Positions 256 to 57,109 of a DNA stretch of 64,000 bases are shown here, in pieces (the first letter of the stretch is position 1; each line of letters opens with the position of its first letter). Position numbers and translations under genes: made by a program. The DNA comes from Lentilactobacillus diolivorans DSM 14421. Lineage in GTDB: Bacteria; Bacillota; Bacilli; Lactobacillales; Lactobacillaceae. The notes beneath the pieces are model-generated. The model did no database searches. It was not told the origin of the DNA and was given only the letters and a program-made list of their open reading frames with translations. The stretch is from positions 1-64,000 of the forward strand of contig NZ_AZEY01000066.1 in assembly GCF_001434255.1 (NCBI RefSeq), given 5' to 3'.

Positions 256-385
256 AAACGGGGCTGGGACAAAAGTAATTTTGTCCCAGCCCCGTTTGTA
301 ATCACGATTATTACCGAGTGAAAATGTGCACCAAAAGGCAACTTCCTGCCGCGTAACCGCCTTTCGTCCCACTCTCTTTTCCTTT
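256..385 (+). repeat. Composite intergenic hairpin repeat, copy A (terminator-like module 1 plus short module 2)
   Basis: Module 1 (256-297) is a near-perfect hairpin whose stem is AAACGGGGCTGGGACAAAA and its complement around a GTA loop. It probably serves as the pgi terminator. A linker (GTAATCACGATTATTACCGAGTG, seen in pieces at 297-320) leads into module 2 (324-376). Its left arm GTGCACCAAAAGGC pairs imperfectly with CGCCTTTCGTCCCAC, and the right strand carries the TAACC bulge seen in the other copies. Related copies lie near 18802, 27100, 27257, 33264, 53581, 56878 and 60211. In this copy the inner stem is missing, leaving a short loop. Confidence 0.75.
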
Positions 386-27099: not shown

Positions 27100-27133
27100 G
27101 GTCAAAAAGGCTGGGACAATAGTCTTTTTGACC
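27100..27133 (+). terminator. Terminator of the ArsR-type regulator, overlapping repeat copy C
   Basis: GGTCAAAAAG (27100-27109) pairs perfectly with CTTTTTGACC (27124-27133). The interior GCTGGGACAATAGT is the left half of the module-1 repeat, so a repeat unit has been turned into a different hairpin here. Confidence 0.7.
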
Positions 27134-27250
27134 AGTTCCTGTTAGTGTAAACACGATTGTTACCAAGCGAAACGTGGGACAAAAGGCAACTCCGACCGTG
27201 TAACTGAATTATCCAACTATTCAGAATCAGGATATCTAGCTGAACTTTTT
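27134..27250 (+). repeat. Composite intergenic repeat, copy C (linker plus left arm of module 2)
   Basis: The linker AACACGATTGTTACCAAGCG is followed by AAACGTGGGACAAAAGGC, then AACTCCGACC, then an inner segment ending ATTATCCAACTATTC-AGAATCAG-GATATC. These are the family landmarks in order. The right arm with the TAACCGCC motif is missing, and another copy (E) abuts it, so C looks truncated. Confidence 0.65.
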
Positions 27251-27256
27251 ATTTAG

Positions 27257-27385
27257 TTGAAATGTGGACCAGCAAGCAGACCCCGGCTATATAAGCCCCC
27301 TAACTTAATATTCCAAAATCAGGAATATCAAGTTAGGGGGCTTATATTCTGGAGTCTAACCGCTTGCTGGTCCACTCTGTTTATA
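27257..27385 (+). repeat. Long-hairpin intergenic repeat, copy E (module 2)
   Basis: GTGGACCAGCAAGC (27264-27277) pairs exactly with GCTTGCTGGTCCAC (27362-27375). The inner stem ATATAAGCCCCCTAACTT (27289-27306) pairs with AAGTTAGGGGGCTTATAT (27330-27347), and AATATTCC pairs near the loop. The right strand holds the unpaired TAACC (27357-27361) conserved in copies A, D and F, and the element ends with ACTCTGTTT. The stem sequence is unlike the other copies, yet the architecture is the same. Confidence 0.8.
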
Positions 27386-33263: not shown

Positions 33264-33330
33264 AAAAATGAAGAAGAGTGGGACGAAAGGCAATCTCCCG
33301 TCGCCTTCCATTCCACTCTTCTTCATTTTT
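33264..33330. repeat. Hairpin intergenic repeat, copy G; bidirectional terminator
   Basis: AAAAATGAAGAAGAGTGGGA (33264-33283) pairs with TTCCACTCTTCTTCATTTTT (33311-33330) with one G-U. The interior GACGAAAGGCAATCTCCC and GCCTT match module 2 of the repeat family. It lies between the convergent AraC and ABC-transporter genes. The remainder of 33116-33409 shows nothing else apart from the 20-bp element. Confidence 0.75.
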
Positions 33331-52411: not shown

Positions 52412-52676
52412 CACCTTTCAAATTTAACACTATTTTAAAACTTTTTAGTTATTTTTCAACCCCACACATCAATTTTGACCGATACGCTGTCTCAAATCTA
52501 CCTCACCATCTTTCATCCGGATAACACTTTCAACAGATCATCTCGTCAATTTCACTCTTGGTCAAAAGCACGCACAGCCATTTTATATTTTGCATGCGTT
52601 TTCGCTTGAAGGCTATTTTGCATGATGCTATTATCTTGGTGTAATAATTTTGATTCGTTTTGGGAGGAAAATTATC

Positions 52677-53498
52677 ATGAAAAAGAATCGGCTCATTACC
52701 GCAATCGTTGCGGCCATGTTACTTGCACCGGCAATTCCAATTGCTGAAGCCGCCGCACCTTCTCAACTCAGCACGATCACAACCGCAGCTGCTGCCAAAA
52801 CAAAAGTTGCATCAAAGGCAAGAGTCGTTTCGGCAATCAATCGGACCGCCGACTTAAATCCCACCGGAGCCGTGATGACCTTTAACCAGCCAACTTATGA
52901 AGCTTATGGTGCTTTATTTGATAAACAGTATAACGTTGGTGCAATGAGTTCCTGGAAAGTTTTTGGTAAACACAACCGTGCTTACGTTTATACTAATTCA
53001 AGTGCGTTACAGCGCTATGTTACCGGTGCCATTAAAAATTGGAATCGGGCCCTTGGCCAAAAAACTTTTGTTCAAGGTACCAAAGCCCATCACACGATTA
53101 CCATCCAATGGCAATATAACGGTGCCAACCTAGATTGGGATGGCTTGTACGCGAATGGTAAGCTCAAAATTAACAAATCGCTGTACGACGATCCAACTTA
53201 CGTGCCACAATCTTATGAAGCCGAAAATAAGACCACCATGCCAGGTGCTAATGATCCAAATTCAGCGGCTTATCAACAGCAAGCCAGCAAGTACTGGATA
53301 GCCATTACCACCCACGAATTAGGCCACAGTTTGGGATTGGACCATTCACCATATACATCAGACATTATGTATACTGATTCGGAAACGGCGGGCAGCAAGG
53401 GAAGAATACCGGTAGTTTCGCTGAGTTTACAAACACCGTTTCACAACGTGATATCAACCGAGCAAAACTGGCGGAAAACCTTGGGTACTGGTAAATGA
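52677..53498 (+). pseudogene. Secreted matrixin-like zinc metalloprotease, frameshifted C-terminus (copy 1)
   Basis: ATG 52677 follows GGGAGG and starts a signal peptide (MKKNRLITAIVAAMLLAPAIPIAEAAA). The mature part has the metzincin zinc site ITTHELGHSLGLDHSPYTSDIM, with a Met-turn-like DIM after it. After SETAG the frame runs into SKGRIPVVSLSLQTPF, which does not match the intact paralogue at 56051. In another phase the DNA reads GKNTGSFAEFTNTVSQRDINRAKLAENLGYW and stops at 53492-53494, matching the paralogue end. One base lost near 53388-53396 explains it. The zinc site survives, so partial activity is possible. Confidence 0.8.
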
Positions 53499-53580: not shown

Positions 53581-53765
53581 AGGGGCTGGGACAATAGTCG
53601 TTTTGCCCAGTCTCTGTTTGTATAATCATGATTATTACCGTGCGGAAACGTGAGATAAAAGGCAGCTTCCAGAGTACAACCAAATTATCCCAATATTCAA
53701 GCCCGGAATACTGGGATAATTCAGTTGTACTCTGGAAGTTAACCGCCTTTTATCCCACTCTGTTG
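53581..53765 (+). repeat. Composite intergenic hairpin repeat, copy D (fullest copy)
   Basis: A degenerate module 1 (GGGGCTGGGACAATAGTCGTTTTGCCCAGTC, in parts at 53582-53612) and the linker ATAATCATGATTATTACC precede the module-2 hairpin at 53650-53758. There GTGAGATAAAAGGC pairs with GCCTTTTATCCCAC, CTTCCAGAGTACAAC pairs exactly with its complement, and ATTATCCCA and TATTC pair near the loop. The right strand carries the unpaired TAACC, and the element ends with ACTCTGTT. The hairpin spans more than 100 bases. Confidence 0.85.
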
Positions 53766-55919: not shown

Positions 55920-56050
55920 CATTGTGACATCGCTTAAATTTCAGTGATAACGATTAAAGATTACCAATTTTCTTGTATTCACGGTTGGGCGATGCTATGA
56001 TAATGGTCAATTCTTTTAGCCTAAAGTTCTTTAGTCACGTGGAGGTTCTC

Positions 56051-56872
56051 ATGAAAAAAATTAAGTTGATGACGGTTGCCCTGGCAGCAATGATTCTTGC
56101 ACCCGCATTTTCGGTTACTGGTATCGTCACACCTACATCAACAATTACTGCAAACGCTGCTTCACAATCAACTGTGATTTCTAAGATTAAGCAAACACCT
56201 GATTTAAACCCAACGGCAAGTGTCAGACACTTTACCAAAGGGACCTATCAAGCTAACCAAGCAATCTTTGATAAACAGTATAACGTTGAAAAAATGAGCA
56301 TCAACGGCGTTTTTAACAATCATCACGCCACAATTTATACCAACTCGAGCATCTTGAAGGGCTACGTTGCTGCTTCAATCAAGACTTGGAATAATGCCCT
56401 TGGCTCAAATGTCTTTTCCGGTGGCACCAAGACTAATCACACCATTCTTGTTCGCTTTGGCTCCGGTGGCACCAACGCAAGCGATTGGGACGGACTCTAC
56501 AAGTCAAATACTTTAGCTGTTAACCGAAAACATTTCAATAGTCCAAACTATATGCTGACCGTCCTGCGGGCAATCACCGGCAAGAACGTTCAGGCACCAC
56601 AAACAGATAGTGAAAAAGCCGCGTTTGAAAAAGACTACTTTGGTTTTTGGGAAGCAACCATTACCCACGAACTGGGCCACAGCTTAGGCCTCGACCATAC
56701 ACCTTACATGAACGATATTATGTTTGCCCAGAACGGCTCAGCTTCTTCTGATGCAAAGTATGGCTGGCAAACGGGGAAAAATGGCAATGATACCTTTGCC
56801 GGATTAACAAATGTCTTATCCAATCGGGATATTAACCGGGCTAAGTTAACTAAGTTGCTGGGCTATTGGTAA
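56051..56872 (+). CDS. Secreted matrixin-like zinc metalloprotease (copy 2, intact)
   Basis: The 273 residues start at ATG 56051, five bases after GGAGG. The upstream frame from 55973 has no ribosome binding site. The signal peptide MKKIKLMTVALAAMILAPAFS is followed by a short pro-region (TPDLNPTASVRHF) and the catalytic domain with TITHELGHSLGLDHTPYMNDIM. That is HExxHxxGxxH plus a downstream methionine, as in metzincins. The end is GLTNVLSNRDINRAKLTKLLGYW. It is a clear paralogue of 52677, and the two flank the GPP34/EEP pair. Similar proteins in lactobacilli are called matrixin-family or M10-like. The substrate is unknown. Confidence 0.88.
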   Translation: MKKIKLMTVALAAMILAPAFSVTGIVTPTSTITANAASQSTVISKIKQTPDLNPTASVRHFTKGTYQANQAIFDKQYNVEKMSINGVFNNHHATIYTNSSILKGYVAASIKTWNNALGSNVFSGGTKTNHTILVRFGSGGTNASDWDGLYKSNTLAVNRKHFNSPNYMLTVLRAITGKNVQAPQTDSEKAAFEKDYFGFWEATITHELGHSLGLDHTPYMNDIMFAQNGSASSDAKYGWQTGKNGNDTFAGLTNVLSNRDINRAKLTKLLGYW

Positions 56873-56877
56873 AAAAA

Positions 56878-56999
56878 CAGAGTGGCACACCAAGCGGTTA
56901 TCTCCCAGAATATAAATAACGCCAACCAATATTCCTAAAACCGAGAATATTGGTTGGCGTTATTTATATGACCGGGAGCTGCTTGGTGTGCCATGTTTC
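56878..56999 (-). repeat. Long-hairpin intergenic repeat, copy F (module 2, reverse orientation)
   Basis: AGTGGCACACCAAGC (56881-56895) pairs with GCTTGGTGTGCCAT (56981-56994), and TATAAATAACGCCAACCAAT (56911-56930) pairs exactly with the start of the other arm at 56949-56968. On the minus strand the landmarks run in family order: GAAAC-ATGG, AGC-AGCTCCCGG, the TAACC bulge near 56896-56900, and ACTCTGT. The stem sequence is unrelated to copies D and E. Confidence 0.82.
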
Positions 57000-57109
57000 A
57001 GCTAAGTAAAAAATTCAACAAGGTATCCCAGGTTTGAATATCTGGACAATTCGATGACCCGGCCGGAAGCAATCTTTTATCCCCATCTCAGCTGAATAGC
57101 AACATCCAG

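Follow-up and report, generated by a model that had tools for sequence, protein, structure and literature searches.

The structured repeat in the window (the whole 64-kb stretch of DNA that was analyzed) is, in the explanation that we favor with about even confidence, a member of a REP-like, nonautonomous superfamily of DNA hairpins of the Lactobacillales. This explanation draws on the high copy number of the repeat, the conservation of its asymmetric core, the pairing of stems whose sequence varies from copy to copy, its frequent placement at stop codons, the existence of filled and empty sites, and its polar arrays. Palindromic repeats are common in bacterial noncoding DNA, and both their mode of spread and their siting at stop codons are still debated.

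A sequence-only reading of the window had listed six copies, A and C to G, that share a layout rather than a sequence. We examined them by folding and with a covariance model, R1, built from 12 copies of the genome to which the window belongs (here, the own genome); R2, a broad model built from 30 diverse copies, was used in other genomes. At E ≤ 0.1, the R1 matches in the window are D, E, and F only, each with its opposite-strand twin. The features are as follows.

53650..53764, + strand: copy D, a full hairpin (type I) with the bulge TAACC and the right end CACTCTGTT (folding, R1 match)
53581..53617, + strand: first hairpin, H1 (GGGCTGGGACAA type), 5' of D (sequence and folding)
53618..53649, + strand: linker of D, with a small TAATCATGATTATTA palindrome and with GGAAAC at its end, then GTG (AAAC flank conserved in 125 copies)
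27264..27381, + strand: copy E, a full hairpin, type II (folding, R1 match)
27174..27263, + strand: copy C, a left-half unit without right arm, made up of left arm, apical mini-hairpin, and spacer and stacked on E (unit search)
27100..27133, + strand: H1 hairpin 5' of C and E (sequence reading)
56876..56994, − strand: copy F, a full hairpin (folding, R1 match)
56995..57075, − strand: left-half unit stacked on F (unit search)
55973..56872, + strand: gene of 299 amino acids whose stop F abuts (homolog comparison)
260..298, + strand: copy A, part 1, a perfect H1 hairpin (folding)
322..380, + strand: copy A, part 2, similar to a type I element that has lost its inner stem by deletion (folding)
33264..33330, + strand: copy G, a terminator-like hairpin whose common feature is the outer GTGGGACGAAAGGC motif only (folding)

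The copies are not equivalent: the hairpins with a bulge are D, E, and F, while C is a half unit before E, A has a degenerate second part, and G is terminator-like. D, E, and F each fold into one long hairpin, with some 45 bp and an asymmetric bulge on the right-hand strand; the fold energies are −63.1, −77.3, and −76.7 kcal/mol, respectively, the z score is about −14, and none of 200 shuffled sequences folded as well. For these three copies, folding bears out that the outer stems differ, with each right arm matching its own left arm, and that the inner stems are unrelated yet paired around a fixed asymmetric bulge. Part 2 of copy A, which has lost the inner stem, folds with −7.6 kcal/mol and not in the way the sequence-only reading had it. 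Copy G is a short, T-tailed hairpin without an R1 match in the search of the window. The window has no tRNA or tmRNA and no match to Rfam 15 above the gathering score, and a lax Rfam 15 search at five loci gave sub-threshold microRNA hits only. The H1 hairpins (GGGCTGGGACAAAA type; 27100-27133, 260-298, and 53581-53617) are repeated themselves, often 5' of H2, and look like bidirectional terminators. The gene before D (52650-53498) and the gene at F match the same L048 gene at 45% each; the frame of the former ends differently from the GYW-type end seen in another frame, as if the gene were frameshifted near its 3' end.

The sequence-only reading had proposed building a covariance model from these copies and searching genomes with it, and both models find dispersed copies in many Lactobacillales genomes. 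All copy counts are lower bounds, with 150, 89, 14, or 9 candidates scored per genome. The own genome has at least 143 R1 strand matches among 150 candidates scored, some of which are opposite-strand twins, and type II, as in copy E, is the dominant type among the best matches. In 464 kb of this genome (the window and 20 stretches partly chosen for known copies), 64 distinct hairpins were kept; they were hand-picked from 149 rows, with omission of opposite-strand twins and of all places below about 46 bits (some 15). Another 61 hairpins, from outside the own genome, were picked from 139 rows in the same way, with twice-fetched loci and about eight weaker rows (29 to 49 bits) also omitted and L059 (40.9 bits) kept. 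Of these 125 copies, 105 could be parsed; the core is too divergent, or contains N, in the other 20. A relative with a two-contig assembly, G006, has elements at 66 or more distinct places at E ≤ 0.01. On its contig C1 (about 2.5 Mb), the first 0.36 Mb contains only 2 of the 66 elements and the part past 2.19 Mb contains none, so that one region is seemingly avoided, perhaps the origin. There is no consistent bias in replication-strand orientation in G006 (22+/7− in the first half and 21+/16− in the second).

Read 5' to 3' in the orientation of the sequence-only reading, the element consists of TTAGCYRAAAC, GTG, the V1 stem, GCAG, the X stem, a 2x1 loop, and the V2 stem, followed by a small apical hairpin and a return strand that carries a TAACC-type bulge before GC, then CAC and TCT. 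V1 (8 to 9 bp) and V2 (12 or more bp) both vary between copies. Sequences and flank counts place the foot of the hairpin at AAAC-GTG ... CAC-TCT, where neither a GTAG nor a CGTC tetranucleotide is present. The copies might, as the earlier reading conceded, have turned out to lack shared flanks; instead, each column of the AAAC flank is kept in 107 to 121 of the 125 copies. All but seven copies match a loose regular expression for the bulge, and several of the seven have a variant bulge. The own genome contains 13 instances of the pattern TAACCGC-N5..12-CCACTCTGTT and none of a reversed control. In other Lactobacillales, the X stem varies too and it is mainly the layout that is kept, with some letter changes in GCAG and in the bulge. 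In the 420 nt upstream, 41 of the 64 own copies and 41 of the 61 others have a loose H1-like motif, as raw counts without a chance control. In one G014 copy (L055), the core is different and V2 is nearly the same as the dominant V2 of the own genome (CCCCCTAACCT), suggesting from the sequence either exchange between subfamilies or convergence.

In a genus sample of 24 genomes, including the own genome, 16 have R1 matches, the criterion by which a genome of the genus is called element bearing here, and R2 finds copies in two of the remaining eight (G002 and G010). The 16 are taken to include Lentilactobacillus hilgardii, L. otakiensis, L. parakefiri, L. kefiri, L. sunkii, L. parabuchneri, and L. 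rapi. A pattern scan of named genomes (35 stretches) found the element also in Secundilactobacillus, Paucilactobacillus, Limosilactobacillus, and one Levilactobacillus contig. The stretches around the element under the labels Levilactobacillus yonginensis and Secundilactobacillus malefermentans (L112 and L122) are identical over the 510 nt compared; one label or assembly may be wrong, which makes the Levilactobacillus occurrence doubtful. In a sample of 246 Lactobacillales genomes, R1 matches 12 at E ≤ 1e-6 and R2 matches 78 at E ≤ 1e-4, the latter in 35 of 64 genera, and 13 newly fetched loci of other genera display the layout on inspection, with some letter changes. In a phylum-wide sample, with 9 rather than 14 candidates scored per genome, R2 matches 2 of 398, the own genome and one borderline case (7.7e-5).

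The family reaches Enterococcus. Members of group f3 were assigned to this genus by plasmid matches: with L269 as query, 62 of 73 matching records are Enterococcus, and the matches span 161 to 174 bp among the 15 matches listed. The Enterococcus element has the same layout, with an H1-like hairpin in front and a length of about 170 bp. One locus (L278) folds as two adjacent hairpins; three more (L279 to L281) do so less cleanly, the minimum-energy fold of the longer stretch being mixed. Unannotated records labeled as Listeria and Enterococcus phage (OR846953 and others) also carry an Enterococcus-type element (64 matched, 15 matches listed), possibly as host DNA in these records; no phage record was found with the Lentilactobacillus query. 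The sequence-only reading could name no described family, and here it has to be amended: a described family probably exists, both in the Efa-1-like element of Enterococcus and, for the same stop-codon habit, in the REPs. The superfamily probably includes the Enterococcus elements Efa-1/EFAR, compared by published description rather than by consensus letters; the EFAR repeats of Enterococcus we presume to be the same as Efa-1. As far as the accessible text of PMC2267715 goes, Efa-1 was modeled at 163 bp from 65 sequences (18 of them complete) as paired adjacent stem-loops in intergenic DNA. Efa elements lie preferentially near gene 3' ends, and unpublished data mentioned in the accessible text of PMC1590033 suggest mRNA stabilization. 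In the literature searched, which lay mostly outside subscription journals, we recognized no description of the repeat in Lactobacillaceae, and we do not claim its absence from print. Scattered repeats of Lactobacillales, those of Enterococcus included, may be united by the element.

Strong covariation supports the original claim of dispersed structured repeats with compensating change. In the 105 parsed copies, the two arms of V2 are complementary at 10.6 of 12 positions versus 5.9 between arms of different copies, and those of V1 at 6.5 of 8 positions versus 4.1; V1 pairing is weaker in other species (5.9 of 8). Without filtering (n = 105), 87% of V2 pairs and 79% of V1 pairs are Watson-Crick. 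Among 85 distinct copies with V2 in register, 93.6% of the V2 pairs are Watson-Crick and 0.8% are G·T, where the copies used for the in-register statistics (85 for V2 and 80 for V1) were chosen for at least 60% pairing, a choice that favors pairing. All four Watson-Crick types occur in each of the 12 V2 columns. The mutual information of V2 is 1.02 bits unfiltered and 1.29 bits in register, compared with 0.07 to 0.08 bits in shuffles, and the lack of significant covariation that the sequence-only reading had named as its possible refutation is thus not what is seen. In an order-wide alignment of 30 sequences, two-sided changes occur in 36 of 38 predicted pairs, the model pair counts of alignment A4 being taken from a sequence alignment with uncertain inner columns. 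Covariation is visible even at a single orthologous site: between G006 (L062) and L. parakefiri (L117), the flanks align and the core strands are identical, while the stems differ by five two-sided and three one-sided changes (counted by eye).

The kind of mismatch bears on the level at which pairing is kept. G·T is rarer than A·C, both in the first nine V2 columns (11 versus 21) and in V1 (18 versus 32), for a sum of 29 versus 53; these counts were made with a similar pairing filter on 88 and 83 copies, and their benchmark is A·C rather than an RNA's own share of G·U. A single-sided transition creates G·T or A·C equally, and selection on an RNA would keep G·T; because A·C is the commoner of the two, pairing at the DNA level is the simplest reading, be it through selection for a DNA hairpin, arm-templated correction, or exchange between copies. 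The sequence-only reading had attributed the pattern to selection on RNA or DNA structure; the compensating change stands, while the RNA side loses ground, since G·T shows no excess over A·C, which favors DNA pairing or arm-templated correction. A more general warning follows: strong covariation in bacterial hairpins need not imply RNA function when G·T is not favored.

The arms may even be held together by mutation alone. If they were simply copied onto each other in replication or repair, the covariation would be mutational and silent on function. The scarcity of G·T agrees with this, and so does the erasure of the 2x1 loop in 2 of the 125 copies, as arm copying predicts, and the loss of the bulge in L080:3924. 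We nevertheless consider correction as the sole explanation unlikely: a bulge expression that fails in only 7 of 125 copies, several of them with a variant bulge, and a layout that recurs, apart from some changed letters, at the 13 loci from other genera both speak against it, and because the layout survives in most copies, correction alone is insufficient. The copies with an erased loop or bulge (L080:3924-4039, L081:10024-10141, and L086:11440-11557) have more fully complementary arms, and no other parsed copy folds as stably as that of L080 (−94.8 kcal/mol).

The placement of the element had gone unseen in the sequence-only reading: in many copies, its right end lies at the stop codon of an opposite-strand gene. 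We scored antisense reading frames of at least 100 codons whose stop starts between −6 and +4 nt from a hairpin end. The right end (AGAGTG on the opposite strand) lies at such a stop in 29 of 64 own copies and 25 of 61 others (54 of 125), versus 0 of 64 and 0 of 61 for the left end (0 of 125), which is a partial control in that the left end of the hairpin is not the outer border of the element in arrays and in H1-bearing copies. Such a gene ends between −150 and +29 in 82 copies, and 54 of these ends fall in the 11-nt window. At a further 28 loci of other genera, a stop lies at the right end in eight cases and at the left end in none. The stops of the 54 are TAG (26), TAA (25), and TGA (3), and in many copies the AG of TAG belongs to the element; in four own-genome copies (stop at +23), the gene reads into the element.

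Sites with and without the element can be compared for the same gene. Among the 24 genus genomes, R2 detects a hairpin at the stop of PepO in 7, in several subtypes, and none there in 16; in the remaining genome, a contig end cuts the locus. The loci of FAD oxidase and xylulokinase likewise carry the element in some species but not in others. The native C-terminus and the stop are identical or almost identical in both states, and R2 finds nothing at the empty stops of these two. All three comparisons are between species only, and deletion could also account for the empty sites, a caveat for mobility. The right end of the element is sharp in these cross-species comparisons. Truncation of genes by the element is disfavored as the source of stop adjacency: for FAD oxidase, xylulokinase, and PepO, the protein has a matching C-terminus at filled and at empty sites. 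In the window, 3 nt separate the right end of F from the TAA stop of the gene at 55973-56872 (+ strand), which matches no Pfam family at E ≤ 1e-5. A contig of Lentilactobacillus sunkii encodes a homolog of this gene (45% identity) that also has an element behind its stop, and the two elements are unrelated in V1 and in V2.

Stop adjacency could reflect selection on mRNA instead of target choice. The element would then be an RNA element, a hairpin directly behind the stop that slows terminating ribosomes or protects the 3' end, with covariation as the trace of RNA selection. The one-sided stop contact (54 of 125 right ends, no left end) is in line with this, and a passage in PMC12306157, citing earlier work, reports that REPs within 15 nt of a stop stall ribosomes. 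Yet G·T is not favored over A·C (29 versus 53), although RNA tolerates G·U, 71 of the 125 copies lie outside the −6 to +4 stop window, and stacked half units and high copy number would require spread as well. We therefore hold the RNA reading to be rather unlikely. It is very improbable that the copies are unrelated, look-alike intrinsic terminators. Convergent genes do flank 24 of the 64 own copies, and a T-rich stretch lies behind the right end in 19 own copies (of 64) and 23 others (of 61), versus 3 and 9 for the left end. Still, 83 of the 125 copies lack a T-rich right flank, the stem is about 45 bp long, the core, flanks, and bulge are conserved, 36 of 38 pairs have the two-sided change described above, and the distribution is uneven (78 of 246 Lactobacillales genomes versus 2 of 398 in the phylum sample). 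Termination as a side effect is possible.

Half units also count in favor of a REP-like DNA hairpin. A unit search of the 464 kb gave 68 hits outside full hairpins. For 65 of these, the next feature on the same strand lies no more than 60 nt downstream and is a further unit in 25 cases and a full hairpin in 40. The three exceptions are a unit next to an N gap, a unit at the boundary of a stretch, and a unit before a truncated left arm. One to four half units precede 40 of the 64 full hairpins. In 30 of 36 comparable arrays (of the 40), the right arm fits the adjacent left arm better than the preceding unit, with four ties and two opposite cases. In the simplest model, the half units would arise from repeated duplication of spacer and left arm, with a breakpoint at the hairpin apex, after which only the last left arm would stay coupled to the right arm.

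Searches for a mobilizing enzyme, covering the families Y1_Tnp and RVT_1, found none. Y1_Tnp (PF01797, RAYT/IS200-IS605) is present in 6 of the 16 R1-matched genus genomes and in one without R1 matches, and it is missing in 10 of the 16. The check for RAYT-like transposase partners proposed with the original description thus came out negative, as Y1_Tnp does not track the element. RVT_1 is absent in 11 of the 16, the own genome and G006 among them. Neither family is a required partner today: RAYT/IS200-IS605 is rejected by the distribution of Y1_Tnp, and a reverse transcriptase (retron or group II intron relic) by that of RVT_1. That the repeat is a satellite of a resident transposase (IS200/IS605 or RAYT) or reverse transcriptase is for the same reasons improbable, even though a bulged hairpin with a conserved single-stranded flank resembles REP and IS200/IS605 ends and the own genome has three Y1_Tnp matches; one element hit was obtained in six Y1_Tnp loci of about 3 kb.

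If the REP-like reading holds, the element would be copied into new sites as a hairpin read by its shape, with bulge, 2x1 loop, and single-stranded flanks as the cues, which would leave the stem sequence free as long as it is paired. The partner enzyme, unseen here, may be lost in many hosts. The arms would be kept complementary on DNA by arm-templated repair and conversion between copies together with selection for the hairpin, and by analogy with REPs, a hairpin behind a stop in mRNA might act on 3' stability or on terminating ribosomes. A bolder version, which we regard as doubtful, sees an order-wide mobile DNA hairpin whose shape is read by a putative recombinase that places it at stops, whose stems are rewritten in concert, and whose older copies are the half units; if true, it would be a transposition strategy without a described enzyme. 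The element offers internal controls that are rare elsewhere, namely, two stems that vary freely while the core is fixed, half units that lack a partner arm within the same arrays, and sites in the same gene with and without the element. Two questions thereby become testable: (i) whether covariation is due to selection or to arm copying and (ii) whether stop adjacency is due to target choice or to selection.

Several known systems share features with the element. The BOX elements of Streptococcus pneumoniae are modular intergenic repeats with a variable number of inner units, in which boxA and boxC pair across the array; the element is modular like BOX, but a partner arm exists for its last unit only. 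Integron attC sites are recognized by shape as single-stranded hairpins, with the stem sequence free. The ATCTAAC of the right core resembles an integron R box; we rejected an attC-like reading of this core because TAAC stays unpaired in the element and the resemblance is not maintained from one copy to another. With Efa-1, the Enterococcus loci analyzed here share size and an intergenic double hairpin of about 163 to 170 bp (fold of L278), while stem turnover and half-unit arrays are not mentioned in the accessible parts of PMC2267715 and PMC1590033.

REPs are small, intergenic, high-copy-number palindromes found mainly between convergent or unidirectional genes; most conv-REPs lie less than 20 bp from gene 3' ends, and GTAG REP ends often supply a TAG stop (PMC3733652). 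The element is likewise a high-copy-number, intergenic, bulged palindrome near gene 3' ends, with a TAG that overlaps the element end in many copies. It differs from REP/BIME in the length of the hairpin (about 45 bp versus 20 to 40 bp for REP), in having no GTAG/CGTC tag, in stems that vary between copies, and in its half-unit arrays, and it differs from REP with RAYT in that Y1_Tnp is absent from 10 of 16 R1-matched genus genomes. The element is thus real, widespread, and related in kind to REP; what seems new is an order-wide structural family with varying yet paired stems that show no wobble preference, polar arrays of half units, and a sharp contact with stop codons.
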